Shown: one piece after another, positions 30,360 to 39,978 of the stretch | Layout: every line of letters starts with the position of its first letter | Numbering within the stretch: position 1 is the first letter of the stretch | DNA from: Amedibacterium intestinale | GTDB lineage: Bacteria; Bacillota_I; Bacilli_A; Erysipelotrichales; Erysipelotrichaceae | Length of the DNA stretch: 64,000 bases | Direction of reading: 5' to 3' | Assembly (NCBI RefSeq): GCF_010537335.1 | Contig: NZ_AP019711.1 | Coordinates: 1,116,001 to 1,180,000 of the forward strand | Notes under the pieces: model-generated | What the model saw: the letters and a program-made list of their open reading frames with translations, nothing else | Database searches by the model: none | What the model was told of the DNA's origin: nothing | Translations under genes and position numbers: made by a program

Positions 30360-31853
30360 ATGGCAATGACAAAAAGAAATGGAAAAAATGATACTATCAT
30401 ACTGAATACAATAGAAGAATTAGTACCACAGGATCATGATGTTAGAATGCTGGAAAGCTGTATCGACTGGAATTTTATCTACCCTCTTGTAGAAAATCTT
30501 TACAGTGATGTTGGAAGACCAAGCATAGATCCTGTGGTTCTTTTTAAAATGATCTTCATCAATATTATTTTCGGAATAGATTCAATGAGAAAGACTTGTA
30601 AAGAAATACAAGTAAATCTTGCATATCGCTGGTTTCTAGGAATCTCCATGGATGAAAGGGTGCCAAATTATTCTACCTGGAGTCAAAATTATATCCGAAG
30701 ATATAGTAACAGCGAAGTATTTGAAAAAATATTTGATCAGATATTGAAACAGGCAATCTCTTATGGCTTTGTAGATATGGAAACTGTATATGGAGACTCC
30801 ACACATCAAAAGGCAAATGCGAATAAAAACAAGTATACAGATGAAGAAGTTGAAATCATGAAGAAAATATATGAAAACGATCTGCTGGATGAGATAAACA
30901 AAGATCGCGAGGAACATGGGAAAAAGCCGATAAAATCAAATGAAAAGGAAGAACTGAATTTCGATGAGGAAACAGGAAAGCTGAAAAGGGACATACAAAC
31001 AAAGCATATCAAAATCAGTAAAACAGATTCGGAGAGTGGCTGTTTCCATAAAGGTGAAAAAGAAAAATGTTTTGCTTATTCACATCAAACATTTTGCGAT
31101 AGAAATGGATTTGTACTGGCAAGCGTATGTGTTGCGGGAAACGTACATGACAGCGTGTCTTTCTTTTCAGCGTATAAAGTATTAAACGATAAATATATGG
31201 ATCAAATAAAAAATGTATGTCTGGATGCGGGCTATATAACACCGGCAATATGTAAGACGGTATTAGAAAATGGGCAAAAAATGTATGCGCCTTATAAAAG
31301 ACCAATGACAAAGAAAGGATATTATAAGAAGTACGAGTATGTATATGATGAAGGATATGACTGTTATCTGTGTCCAAATAATAAGGTGCTTTCATACAGC
31401 ACGACAAACAAGCTTGGATATAAAGAATACAAATCAAATCCAAAGGATTGTGAGAACTGTCCTTTAAGAGGAAGATGTACATCATCAAAGAACTTTCAGA
31501 AAGTAGTGACACGTCATGTATGGGAGGAATACCGGGAGGAGGTAATGGATGAGATAAGACATACACCGGAATGGAAAGAAATCTATCCAAGGCGTAAAGA
31601 AAGCATAGAGAGGGTGTTCGCAGACTGTAAAGAACATCACACGTTGAGATATACCAGGTTAAGAGGGCTACAAAAAAATCAGCATCAGTCGCTGATGATT
31701 TTTGCGTGTTATAATCTAAAAAGAATGTCCAGATGGAGGTGGAAAAACCTCTCTAAAACTGCACAAAATCTAATAAAAAGCACAATTTTAAATTATTTTA
31801 AGAAAAAAGAAAAGCGATACTTGTTTATAAGTACCACTTTGTCAACAATCTGA
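30360..31853 (+). CDS. IS1182-family transposase
   Basis: A 497-residue DDE transposase. N-terminal DUF772-type domain (DVGRPSIDPVVLFKMIF), then the catalytic aspartates in VYGDSTHQKANANKNKY and CLDAGYITPA, and the glutamate in ESIERVFADCKEHH; a CxxC-type cluster (CENCPLRGRC) lies before the last block. Reading frame complete. GGAGTG lies 10 bases before the ATG. The stop codon TGA spans the right IS boundary. Confidence 0.93.
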   Translation: MAMTKRNGKNDTIILNTIEELVPQDHDVRMLESCIDWNFIYPLVENLYSDVGRPSIDPVVLFKMIFINIIFGIDSMRKTCKEIQVNLAYRWFLGISMDERVPNYSTWSQNYIRRYSNSEVFEKIFDQILKQAISYGFVDMETVYGDSTHQKANANKNKYTDEEVEIMKKIYENDLLDEINKDREEHGKKPIKSNEKEELNFDEETGKLKRDIQTKHIKISKTDSESGCFHKGEKEKCFAYSHQTFCDRNGFVLASVCVAGNVHDSVSFFSAYKVLNDKYMDQIKNVCLDAGYITPAICKTVLENGQKMYAPYKRPMTKKGYYKKYEYVYDEGYDCYLCPNNKVLSYSTTNKLGYKEYKSNPKDCENCPLRGRCTSSKNFQKVVTRHVWEEYREEVMDEIRHTPEWKEIYPRRKESIERVFADCKEHHTLRYTRLRGLQKNQHQSLMIFACYNLKRMSRWRWKNLSKTAQNLIKSTILNYFKKKEKRYLFISTTLSTI

Positions 31854-35873: not shown

Positions 35874-35961
35874 GGGGTCGTGGCGAAATAGGCAGACGCA
35901 ACGGACTTAAAATCCGTTGGGAGTTAATCCCGTGCGGGTTCAAGTCCCGCCGTCCCCACCA
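35874..35961 (+). tRNA. tRNA-Leu (anticodon TAA), copy 1
   Basis: An 88-base gene with encoded CCA. Anticodon TAA at 35908-35910, long variable arm and TTCAAGT T-loop identify a leucine tRNA reading UUA/UUG. The acceptor stem GGGGTCG/CGTCCCC has a T5-T68 mismatch in the middle; otherwise complete. Confidence 0.93.
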
Positions 35962-35971
35962 TTTTTTTTAT

Positions 35972-36045
35972 GGTTCCGTAGCCAAGTGGTAAGGCAATAG
36001 ACTGCAACTCTGTGATCATCGGTTCAAATCCGATCGGAACCTCCA
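35972..36045 (+). tRNA. tRNA-Cys (anticodon GCA), copy 1
   Basis: A 74-base gene with encoded CCA. Acceptor stem GGTTCCG/CGGAACC is perfect; anticodon GCA at 36004-36006; discriminator base is T (U73), the identity element for cysteine. Confidence 0.94.
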
Positions 36046-36146: not shown

Positions 36147-36234
36147 GGGGTCGTGGCGAAATAGGCAGACGCAACGGACTTAAAATCCGTTGGGAGTTAA
36201 TCCCGTGCGGGTTCAAGTCCCGCCGTCCCCACCA
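36147..36234 (+). tRNA. tRNA-Leu (anticodon TAA), copy 2
   Basis: Identical to copy 1, including the T5-T68 acceptor-stem mismatch and encoded CCA. Confidence 0.93.
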
Positions 36235-36243
36235 TTTTTTTAT

Positions 36244-36317
36244 GGTTCCGTAGCCAAGTGGTAAGGCAATAGACTGCAACTCTGTGATCATCGGTTCAAA
36301 TCCGATCGGAACCTCCA
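36244..36317 (+). tRNA. tRNA-Cys (anticodon GCA), copy 2
   Basis: Identical to copy 1, with encoded CCA. Confidence 0.94.
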
Positions 36318-36384: not shown

Positions 36385-36413
36385 TTGTATGTGCGTATTG
36401 TGTGTGCTATAAT
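36385..36413 (+). promoter_or_regulatory. nrdG-nrdD promoter
   Basis: TTGTAT (36385-36390), 17-base spacer, TATAAT (36408-36413). The expected start point, about 36420, lies inside the palindrome at 36415-36440. Confidence 0.75.
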
Positions 36414-36414
36414 G

Positions 36415-36440
36415 CAATTAGTTGAAAGCTCAACCAATTG
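36415..36440 (+). promoter_or_regulatory. Probable MarR-type operator over the transcription start
   Basis: CAATT-a-GTTGA-aagc-TCAAC-c-AATTG: ten of eleven bases in each arm are symmetric. The inner GTTGA-N4-TCAAC resembles known MarR-family half-sites. It covers the predicted +1 and ends at the ribosome site of the MarR-NrdG gene, so autorepression is likely. Confidence 0.6.
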
Positions 36441-36450
36441 AGGTGATAAC

Positions 36451-37593
36451 ATGGATAAAAATAATTATTTTTTAATCAACATTTCCCTCTTGCATCGATG
36501 CGGGCAAAAATACTATGATAAACTTTTGAGCGATACAAACATAAATGCTTCTCAGGTCCCCTTTCTAATTCTGATATATGAAAACGAGGGAATCAGCATG
36601 CAGGAACTTGCAGCACGTGGCTGTTTCGATAAAGGCACCATTACAAAAAGCATTCAGAAATTAGAAGAAAACGGCTATGTGCAAAGTGTTCCAAGTTTTA
36701 CAGATAAGCGGATTCGAAATTTATATACAAGTGAAAAAGCAAAGAACATCATACCTCAAATTTATATGATACGCAAACAGTGGTGGGAGCGTTTAACCGC
36801 AGGTTTAGACACCAGTCAACAAGAACAATTTTCTTTCTTATTAAATGAAATCAGCGAGAAAGCAAGAACTTATAACGAGGCAGATGAAAAGCAATCACTT
36901 CCTATCTTCGGAATTCAAAAATTAACGCTTCTAGATTATCCTTCAAAGATGGCTTCTACTTTATTTTGCGGAGGCTGTAATATGCGATGTCCGTTCTGTC
37001 ATAACAAAGGCCTTGTATTTTTAGATGAGACAATGCAGAAATTAGATAACGATGACATTCTTTCTTTTTTAAGAAAAAGAAAAAACATCTTAGAAGGAGT
37101 ATGTATCAGTGGCGGTGAACCACTTCTTCATGATACTTTAGAGCCATTTTTACGTATTCTTAAATCCTTTGGATACTCCATCAAATTAGATACAAATGGA
37201 AGTTTTCCTGAACGTTTAAAAGATTTGATTGAAAAAGGTTTGGTTGATTATGTTGCCATGGATATAAAAAACTGCATATCCCGTTATGAGGAAACGTGTG
37301 GTGTTAGTGATTTTGATGTTACACCAGTAAAAGAAAGTGTTTCTTATCTTATGGAACATCGTATTCCCTATGAATTTCGCACAACACTTGTAAAGGAATT
37401 TCATGATGAAAAAGCCATTCAAGAAATTGGTGAGTGGTTAAAAGGAGCAGACCACTATTATCTTCAAAACTTCAAAAATTCTTCCAGCGTCATTCAAAGC
37501 GGACTACATAGTTTTGAACCAGATGAACTATATGCATTTAAAAAAATTTTAGAGGAAACTATACAGCAAGTAGATATTAGAGGAATTGATTAG
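36451..37593 (+). CDS. nrdG: MarR-type DNA-binding domain fused to anaerobic ribonucleotide reductase activase (NrdG2)
   Basis: A 380-residue fusion. Residues 1-140 form a MarR winged helix (INASQVPFLILIYENEGIS, then MQELAARGCFDKGTITKSI as recognition helix and DKRIRN wing). Residues 150-380 form a radical SAM activase of the NrdG2 type: FGIQKLTLLDYPSK, cluster motif CNMRCPFCHN, CISGGEPLL and MDIKN. NrdG uses SAM and a 4Fe-4S cluster to create the glycyl radical of NrdD, encoded 15 bases downstream. A normal activase is 150-240 residues and has no DNA-binding part. The operator-like palindrome upstream suggests that the enzyme also controls its own operon. GAGGTGA lies before the ATG. Confidence 0.9.
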   Translation: MDKNNYFLINISLLHRCGQKYYDKLLSDTNINASQVPFLILIYENEGISMQELAARGCFDKGTITKSIQKLEENGYVQSVPSFTDKRIRNLYTSEKAKNIIPQIYMIRKQWWERLTAGLDTSQQEQFSFLLNEISEKARTYNEADEKQSLPIFGIQKLTLLDYPSKMASTLFCGGCNMRCPFCHNKGLVFLDETMQKLDNDDILSFLRKRKNILEGVCISGGEPLLHDTLEPFLRILKSFGYSIKLDTNGSFPERLKDLIEKGLVDYVAMDIKNCISRYEETCGVSDFDVTPVKESVSYLMEHRIPYEFRTTLVKEFHDEKAIQEIGEWLKGADHYYLQNFKNSSSVIQSGLHSFEPDELYAFKKILEETIQQVDIRGID

Positions 37594-37608
37594 AGAGGAG
37601 CAATGTAT

Positions 37609-39978
37609 ATGTATCGGGTTATTAAAAGAGATGGAAAAATTGTAGATTTTAATATTTCAAAAATTACACAGGCAATCACCAAAGCTTTTACTTCTGTAGA
37701 AAAGCCATATCATCCAGATGTTATTGATATGCTGGCAATTCGTGTTACCAGTGATTTTGCGAACAAGATTCACGATAACAAGATTTCTGTGGAAGATATT
37801 CAGGATAGTGTGGAAAATGTTTTAATACAGGCTGATTATGCAGATGTTGCGAAATCGTATATTTTATATAGAAAACAAAGAGAAAAAGTGCGTAATATGA
37901 AATCTACGATTTTAGATTACAAAGAACTTGTGAACAGCTATGTTAATGCGACCGATTGGCGTGTAAAAGAAAACTCTACGGTTACCTATTCTGTTGGCGG
38001 TCTTATCTTAAATAACAGTGGGGCTATTACCGCAAACTACTGGTTATCTGAAATTTATGATACTGAAATTGCCAACGCCCACAAAAGCGGTGATATGCAT
38101 ATCCATGATTTAAGCATGTTAACAGGATATTGTGCAGGCTGGTCATTAAAACAGCTAATACAGGAAGGTTTAGGGGGAGTAGAAGGCAAGATTACCTCAA
38201 AGCCTGCAAAACATTTAGCTACTTTATGTAACCAGATGGTTAATTTTTTAGGTATCATGCAGAATGAATGGGCTGGAGCGCAGGCATTTTCTTCCTTTGA
38301 CACTTATCTTGCCCCTTTTATTAAAGTTGATCAATTAGATTATGAACAAGTTAAAAAATGTATAGAGTCCTTTATATATGGTGTAAATACACCAAGTCGC
38401 TGGGGTACGCAGGCACCTTTTTCCAACATTACACTTGATTGGGTCGTACCTGCAGACTTAGCAAACCAGCCTTGTATTGTTGGTGGAAAAGAAATGGATT
38501 TCACATATAAAGACTGTAAAAAAGAAATGGATATGGTCAACAAGGCATTTATTGAAGTCATGCTGGAAGGAGATGCAAATGGAAGAGGATTCCAATATCC
38601 AATTCCTACCTACTCTATCACTTCTGATTTTGACTGGTCAGAAACAGAAAACAATCGTCTTTTATTTGAAATGACTGCAAAATATGGTACTCCTTATTTT
38701 TCTAACTACATTAACAGCGATATGGAACCAAGCGATGTACGAAGCATGTGCTGTCGATTACGTTTGGATTTAAGAGAGTTACGAAAAAAATCTGGAGGAT
38801 ATTTTGGAAGTGGAGAAAGTACAGGTTCCATTGGGGTTGTTACGATCAATCTGCCACGTATCGCATATTTAGCAGAGAATAAACAAGACTTTTATGTTCG
38901 ATTGGATCGTTTAATGGATATTGCGGCACGTTCTTTAAAAATTAAGCGAGATGTTGTAAGCAAACTTCTTAAAGAAGGTTTATATCCTTATACAAAACGT
39001 TATTTAGGTAGCTTCTCCAATCACTTCTCTACGATTGGTCTTATTGGGATGAATGAAGCCGGTTTAAATGCGAAATGGCTGAGAAAAGACTTAACCCATG
39101 TAGAAACACAAGAATTTGCGAAAGAAGTCTTAAATCACATGCGTGATCGTCTTGTATTGTATCAAGAACAGTATGGTGATTTATACAATCTAGAGGCAAC
39201 ACCTGCAGAATCAACAGCTTATCGTTTAGCAAAACATGACAAAGAACGTTATCCTGACATTATTTGCGCAAACGAAAATGGGGAAGCTCCCTACTATACA
39301 AACAGTTCTCATTTACCGGTTGGATTTAGTGATGATGTATTTGAAGCTTTGGATATTCAAGATGAACTTCAAACACTTTATACATCTGGAACAGTATTTC
39401 ATACATTCCTTGGGGAAAAACTTCCTGACTGGAAAGCTGCAGCCTCTCTTGTTCGAAGCATTGCACAAAATTATCGTTTACCATACTATACGATATCCCC
39501 TACGTACTCCATTTGTAAAACACATGGATATTTAAGTGGTGAACAGTACCAATGCCCTATATGTAAAGAAAAAACAGAAGTATGGAGTCGTATTACTGGA
39601 TATTATCGCCCTGTTCAAAACTGGAACGAAGGAAAAGCACAGGAATTTAAAGATCGTACAGAATACAAAAGCAGCAATCAGACTTTTGATGAAAGCTGTC
39701 ATCAATTAAACGCTTCAAAAACAATTCAAACCTTAGAAAAAAACAAAAAAGCAGACACACTGCTTTTCACAACACCTACCTGTCCAAATTGTCCTGCCGC
39801 AAAAAAAATGCTGGATGATGCAGGAATCAACTATACCGTAATTAACGCTATGCAAAATAAAAAACTTGCGATAGAATATGGAATATTGCAGGCACCTACC
39901 CTTCTTATTTTAAATGGTGAACAAAAAAGTATGTATTGCGGTTTAGAAAAGATCATAAAATATATTCATGAACAGTAA
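37609..39978 (+). CDS. nrdD: Anaerobic ribonucleoside-triphosphate reductase with C-terminal redoxin domain
   Basis: Class III ribonucleotide reductase, which makes dNTPs without oxygen. The 789-residue protein has an N-terminal ATP-cone (RVIKRDGKIVDFNISKI, about 1-90), the glycyl-radical barrel, a zinc site (CKTHGY ... CPIC) and the radical motif RITGYYRPV with the glycine encoded at 39598-39600 (residue 664). About 55 residues further a thioredoxin/glutaredoxin-like domain begins (LLFTTPTCPNCPAAKKML), with CPNC at residues 725-728 and the cis-proline segment LQAPTLLIL. The fused redoxin suggests reduction by a dithiol rather than only by formate. I start at 37609 (GGAG at 8 bases); 37603 is too close. 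Follows nrdG directly and ends at a terminator. Confidence 0.93.
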   Translation: MYRVIKRDGKIVDFNISKITQAITKAFTSVEKPYHPDVIDMLAIRVTSDFANKIHDNKISVEDIQDSVENVLIQADYADVAKSYILYRKQREKVRNMKSTILDYKELVNSYVNATDWRVKENSTVTYSVGGLILNNSGAITANYWLSEIYDTEIANAHKSGDMHIHDLSMLTGYCAGWSLKQLIQEGLGGVEGKITSKPAKHLATLCNQMVNFLGIMQNEWAGAQAFSSFDTYLAPFIKVDQLDYEQVKKCIESFIYGVNTPSRWGTQAPFSNITLDWVVPADLANQPCIVGGKEMDFTYKDCKKEMDMVNKAFIEVMLEGDANGRGFQYPIPTYSITSDFDWSETENNRLLFEMTAKYGTPYFSNYINSDMEPSDVRSMCCRLRLDLRELRKKSGGYFGSGESTGSIGVVTINLPRIAYLAENKQDFYVRLDRLMDIAARSLKIKRDVVSKLLKEGLYPYTKRYLGSFSNHFSTIGLIGMNEAGLNAKWLRKDLTHVETQEFAKEVLNHMRDRLVLYQEQYGDLYNLEATPAESTAYRLAKHDKERYPDIICANENGEAPYYTNSSHLPVGFSDDVFEALDIQDELQTLYTSGTVFHTFLGEKLPDWKAAASLVRSIAQNYRLPYYTISPTYSICKTHGYLSGEQYQCPICKEKTEVWSRITGYYRPVQNWNEGKAQEFKDRTEYKSSNQTFDESCHQLNASKTIQTLEKNKKADTLLFTTPTCPNCPAAKKMLDDAGINYTVINAMQNKKLAIEYGILQAPTLLILNGEQKSMYCGLEKIIKYIHEQ

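Follow-up and report, generated by a model that had tools for sequence, protein, structure and literature searches.

The gene at positions 36451 to 37593 on the + strand of the analysed stretch of Amedibacterium intestinale DNA (64,000 nucleotides of contig NZ_AP019711.1, here called the window) joins a MarR-type DNA-binding domain to an NrdG2-type radical-SAM activase. Judged by comparative sequence data, this fusion is very probably a repressor of class III ribonucleotide reductase (RNR) operons. We also consider it probable, with less assurance, that it is a bifunctional activase-repressor of these operons that stands in for NrdR. We infer both that the fusion is the protein that binds the palindromes described below and that its binding represses.

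The gene is a single open reading frame of 380 amino acids without internal stop. Residues 1-145 (36451-36885, + strand) comprise the dimerisation helices and winged helix of the MarR family (Pfam PF01047/PF12802), with the Pfam MarR match over the cut-off at residues 31-88 (E 6.7e-12). Residues 152-379 (36904-37587, + strand) form the NrdG2 radical-SAM activase domain, in which the CX3CX2C motif reads CNMRCPFC and is accompanied by GGEP. Here Pfam Radical_SAM matches residues 172-321 (E 1.1e-16), and the NCBIfam model TIGR02495 (NrdG2) matches residues 152-342 with 202 bits, against a curated cut-off of 131. The adjoining gene, nrdD1, starts 9 nt beyond the end of the fusion gene. AlphaFold2, given an alignment of 23 fused relatives, returned a single two-domain model of high confidence (mean pLDDT 92.6). 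With this model, Foldseek matched one half to crystal structures of the E. coli pyruvate formate-lyase (PFL) activase (3c8f/8fo0), and the MarR half to MarR (3bpx) and SlyA (1lj9) with target TM-scores of 0.86-0.92. Reading frame, Pfam, NCBIfam and AlphaFold2 therefore agree with the preliminary description, which had placed a MarR winged helix and a complete NrdG2 in one intact frame. Pfam found neither an ATP-cone nor a Zn-ribbon in the fusion, the two domains that NrdR (TIGR00244) holds in one chain. The fusion may work like NrdR, yet it is not an NrdR.

Of 60 relatives, 24 have the fused frame intact, and within the order at least 150 of 315 species do. Dielma fastidiosa (L044), a named isolate, has it as well, and it occurs in a second family of the class (G461, G555, G576). 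A wide scan covered 84,980 species genomes; among the matches listed, the best fused ones belonged to Erysipelotrichaceae, including Dielma fastidiosa, and to one unplaced Bacillota MAG, while the Clostridia matches checked among those listed were unfused NrdG2. A search for the architecture across genomes had been proposed earlier, together with the fear that a frameshift or two merged genes had produced the fused frame. Since the frame is intact in so many species of the order and in a named isolate, we reject a sequencing artefact. The open-licence literature searched holds no report of the fusion, or of a MarR protein with class III RNR.

Two features lie upstream in the window. Directly before the fusion operon, a tRNA-Leu(TAA)/tRNA-Cys(GCA) pair is tandemly duplicated with its flanks (35874-36045 and 36147-36317). 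About 5 kb upstream, an intact transposase-like reading frame of 497 aa resembles IS1182-type DDE transposases (30360-31853).

A near-palindrome of 26 nt, CAATTAGTTGAAAGCTCAACCAATTG, occupies positions 36415-36440, with its core TAGTTGAAAGCTCAACCA at 36419-36436 (+ strand). It stands right behind a predicted extended -10 element, TGCTATAAT (36405-36413, + strand), which is preceded at a 17-nt spacer by a putative -35 element, TTGTAT (36385-36390, + strand); all promoter calls were made by consensus match alone. Because the site directly follows the extended -10, it should cover the transcription start of the fusion operon, as had been claimed for it. The degenerate core TAGTTGRN4YCAACYA has one exact match in the 2.49 Mb genome, and that is this site. 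An equivalent palindrome is found upstream of the fusion gene in 19 of the 24 fusion carriers among the relatives (the window's genome included), at 10 of 11 named loci and, at 11/14 or better, before 35 of 40 further fusion genes. None of the three unfused nrdG2 genes checked has it. Several sites show paired changes in their halves (GTTGA/TCAAC, GTTGG/CCAAC).

The position of the operator relative to the predicted promoter varies. It lies directly downstream of the -10 in the window and in three relatives (G015, G047, G256), all with the -10 starting 11 nt before the operator, and further downstream elsewhere. In other promoters it lies upstream of the -10, with a TTGAAA-like half serving as the -35, as before the fusion gene of G226 and before nrdD2, a second class III reductase gene, of G248, G241 and G047. 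In these -35-containing operators the -10 begins 26 nt from the start of the operator. Both predicted placements, behind the -10 and around the -35, are those of classic promoter occlusion. A palindromic predicted operator that overlaps the own or target promoter is what the MarR family has. As the fusion is real and the conserved predicted operator overlaps its own promoter, direct autoregulation is the best reading of this site.

A second target is suggested by nrdD2. In the window's genome (G000), nrdD2 has its own nrdG, forming an nrdD2-nrdG operon that is unlinked to the fusion operon, and a one-mismatch site (13/14) lies 422 nt upstream of it. The pattern was derived from fusion-gene promoters, with no part played by nrdD2 promoters, and nrdD2 sites were counted at 12/14 or better. 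In a first set, the site was found in 9 of 10 genomes with the fusion versus 0 of 20 without, and in a second, new set in 33 of 40 versus 4 of 39. Pooled, this gives 42/50 versus 4/59 (Fisher p 2e-17). Counted by genus, the figures are 20/26 with the fusion and 0/22 without (p 2e-8); related genomes are not independent and the count per genus corrects this only in part, the threshold and pattern are simple, and many genomes are draft MAGs. Shuffled controls gave 6 hits in 960.

Four genomes have the nrdD2 site and no detected fusion. The fusion ends at a contig end in G148, and nrdD1 runs off the contig end in both G148 and G134; the other two (G112, G069) are drafts from fusion-carrying genera. 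Conversely, 8 of the 50 fusion genomes have no 12/14 site at nrdD2, and none was found in G015 and G256, near relatives of the window's genome. The predicted nrdD2 link is thus weak in the window's own genome, and the strong evidence for a second target comes from other genera. Across 15 fusion genomes scanned genome-wide, the exact palindrome occurs 19 times, 16 times before nrdD2 and three times before the fusion gene, with none elsewhere; the nrdD2 site played a part in the choice of these genomes, the lack of further sites did not. The genome-wide scans, the nrdD2 comparison with shuffled controls and the restriction of exact sites to fusion genes and nrdD2 led us to reject a chance palindrome.

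The preliminary description had proposed a one-protein feedback loop. Its autoregulation is supported by the conserved predicted operator at the fusion's own promoter. The one-protein loop is too narrow, because the unlinked nrdD2-nrdG operon is a second target in the comparative data, which points to an RNR regulator instead.

Unlike in G000, the fusion gene is only a few kb from nrdD2, on a single contig, in three genomes of genus g32 (G145, G111, G091; L247, L248, L250). Another palindrome, TTGTTGCAAATGCAACAA or near to it, stands before nrdD2 in many fusion-free genomes and also in G261 (L181, L207, L208, L214-L216, L219, L209/L210, L218, L223), hinting at another regulator of class III RNR. 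In G000 there are two further one-mismatch sites, one in a prophage-like gene and one before a MarR/MFS operon; we rejected an extension of the regulon to either. In this operon (L032/L036, G000:C1 about 135,360-135,870), a free-standing MarR gene is followed by an MFS transporter, and two TAGTTGATATATCAA-like palindromes are found at the promoter. For this reason, related MarR proteins of this genome may recognise similar half-sites.

NrdR (TIGR00244) is absent from G000; it was found in none of the 60 relatives, where only the ATP-cones of reductases appeared, below the cut-off, and in none of 294 genomes of the class, those without the fusion included. The positive controls B. subtilis, L. 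lactis and E. coli all matched. According to published accounts, nearly all bacteria have NrdR (PMC4009431, PMC9110341), and a review from 2014 names just Rickettsia, Helicobacter and Desulfovibrio as being without it (PMC4009431). It senses through its ATP-cone (PMC9110341). We found no report of its absence from Erysipelotrichales in the open-licence literature searched.

The fusion's partner, nrdD1 (37603-39978, + strand), encodes a class III RNR (Pfam NRDD E 7e-191, NCBIfam PRK08270). It has an ATP-cone at residues 5-94 (37615-37884, + strand; PF03477 E 8.5e-25), the presumed nucleotide sensor, and a C-terminal glutaredoxin/thioredoxin-like domain at residues 718-775 (39754-39927, + strand; PF00462/PF13192, with a match to thioredoxin 1fo5). 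In the window, NrdD1 has the SMCCR loop, the Zn cysteines and the Gly-radical motif of a catalytic class III RNR. Its own redoxin-like domain (CPNC) suggests a self-supplied reductant instead of formate.

In 13 genomes, 11 of one clade plus G032 and G087, the NrdD1 encoded behind the fusion gene has lost the SMCCR cysteine loop of a catalytic enzyme, and with it the C-terminal redoxin, so that the C terminus is shortened. The loop aligns to the SCCR motif of characterised NrdD. The T. maritima enzyme depends on that motif, its C329A and C330A variants being inactive, and the cysteine loop is also essential in N. bacilliformis (PMC4493059). The other active-site Cys is replaced in all but one of the 11-genome clade, most of which keep the glycyl-radical motif and Zn cysteines, and G032/G087 are also without the Zn and Gly-radical sites. 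On the fusion tree, the loss of the loop needs two separate events.

These dead NrdD1 proteins are, by the substitution pattern, under purifying selection and not decaying, since the three pairs whose dS could be measured have dN/dS values of 0.05, 0.08 and 0.07. The ATP-cones of these proteins retain scores of 74-83 bits and are conserved as much as the rest of the protein or more, whereas in catalytic NrdD1 the core is more conserved. The catalytic motifs of nrdD2 are intact in the dead-clade genomes examined. Retention of the fusion as an nrdD2 activase is disfavoured, because a separate NrdG over the cut-off was found in all 15 genomes tested, and the examined genomes with dead NrdD1 thus do not need the fusion to activate nrdD2. 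All 13 genomes with dead NrdD1 keep the nrdD2 operator at 12-14/14; at least five of them (G012, G022, G221, G231, G032) keep it while the fusion's own-promoter operator is lost. In one of the 13, G014, the CX3CX2C cysteines of the radical-SAM half are lost, and the MarR domain and both operators are kept. Most dead-clade fusions, and nearly all fusions overall, keep these cysteines, so some radical-SAM role may persist in the clade. The joint retention of dead NrdD1, fusion and nrdD2 operator, with the cysteines of G014 gone, indicates that the pair outlived its own chemistry, which a regulatory role would explain.

In the mechanism that we propose, the MarR half would form a dimer that binds TAGTTGRNNNNYCAACTA, the palindromic site in the promoters of class III RNR operons. 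It would thus target the nrdG2-nrdD1 operon that encodes the fusion and, in most relatives, nrdD2-nrdG, which is unlinked to the first. Bound MarR would cover the start site or the -35 box and so block RNA polymerase. The NrdG2 half would activate NrdD1 wherever NrdD1 is catalytic, and the contact between the two probably also carries the signal. The ATP-cone of NrdD1 would read the ATP/dATP state and alter the grip of the attached MarR domain, and the fusion with NrdD1 would thereby take over the job done elsewhere by NrdR. This input is suggested by the kept ATP-cone, by the fact that NrdG binds NrdD as its natural substrate and by the use of the same domain for sensing in NrdR; we put it forward tentatively. 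Equally tentative is the picture for the dead clade, in which reductase and activase have become a nucleotide-sensing transcription switch: a dead NrdD with its ATP-cone binds to the NrdG half of a MarR-NrdG2 repressor and sets the expression of the active reductase, a reinvented NrdR function.

Some other Fe-S proteins regulate transcription by the state of their cluster. By this precedent, the MarR half might be a mere autorepressor under the control of NrdG2 and its iron-sulfur cluster, SAM or oxygen state, as the earlier model had it, and the conserved own-promoter operator and the CX3CX2C kept in nearly all fusions fit this. We think it unlikely, as it leaves aside the conserved, unlinked second target and the genomes that keep the nrdD2 site after losing the own-promoter site. 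As a general signal, oxygen, SAM or cluster status is doubtful too: G014 retains the MarR domain and both operators without cluster cysteines, and two lineages retain the fusion and the nrdD2 operator though the partner of NrdG2 is dead. Such an input is possible where NrdD1 is catalytic. A further proposal, to which we give little credence, is that dead-looking NrdD1 still makes deoxynucleotides by an altered mechanism and that the fusion is retained as its activase. It agrees with the Zn cysteines and glycyl-radical motif that most members of the large clade retain, and with the CX3CX2C of most fusions. Against it stand the essential cysteine loop of characterised NrdD, the replaced second active-site Cys and lost redoxin, the complete absence of Zn and Gly-radical sites in G032/G087, and the presence of an intact nrdD2 with its own nrdG.

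The binder itself could be another protein. If a free-standing MarR bound the palindrome, the fused MarR domain would be a structural or dimerisation module; the genome does encode further MarR proteins, one of them preceded by similar half-sites, and these could bind similar palindromes, which is a point against the fusion as binder. We judge this improbable nonetheless, as the nrdD2 palindrome tracks the presence of the fusion across genera, and as closely related fusions are most alike in their MarR half (100, 96 and 97 % identity in three pairs, versus 93, 79 and 85 % for the radical-SAM half). It is scarcely credible that the palindrome is no protein site and acts as an RNA hairpin, be it an attenuator or a leader element. 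In a transcribed 5' leader it could fold, and it does lie downstream of the -10 in several promoters, but the -35-containing sites lie upstream of the predicted -10 and would hence not be transcribed, and the palindrome precedes nrdD2 only in fusion-carrying genera. A repressor of class III RNR operons, acting through its own MarR domain, remains our preferred reading of the fusion.

For a class that appears to lack NrdR, the fusion is a concrete candidate, with a defined operator, for matching deoxynucleotide supply to demand. Dead NrdD1 would illustrate a rare event, the conversion of a core metabolic enzyme into a regulator, in two lineages; catalytic and dead forms of the protein exist side by side to be compared.

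The proposed system resembles NrdR (Zn-ribbon plus ATP-cone) as a dedicated repressor with palindromic sites at RNR operon promoters and with an ATP-cone protein as part of its proposed sensor. It differs in that the DNA-binding domain is an unrelated MarR, the ATP-cone resides on the separate NrdD1 protein, and the palindrome is unlike the NrdR box (acaCwAtATaTwGtgt). With MarR/SlyA/MexR-type repressors, the fusion shares the full-length MarR fold with dimerisation helices and a palindrome that overlaps its own promoter, whereas the C-terminal radical-SAM activase and the predicted class III RNR targets set it apart. Stand-alone NrdG2 (TIGR02495) likewise has a radical-SAM domain over the curated cut-off and a gene that adjoins nrdD; in Clostridia and in G011, G019 and G034, however, it lacks both a MarR domain and an upstream palindrome of this kind. 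Finally, trigger enzymes such as BirA and PutA are enzymes that also repress transcription. Like them, the fusion would hold enzyme and repressor in one chain and control genes of its own pathway, but the enzyme in it is a glycyl-radical activase, whose pairing with NrdD1 outlasts the catalytic loss of that partner.
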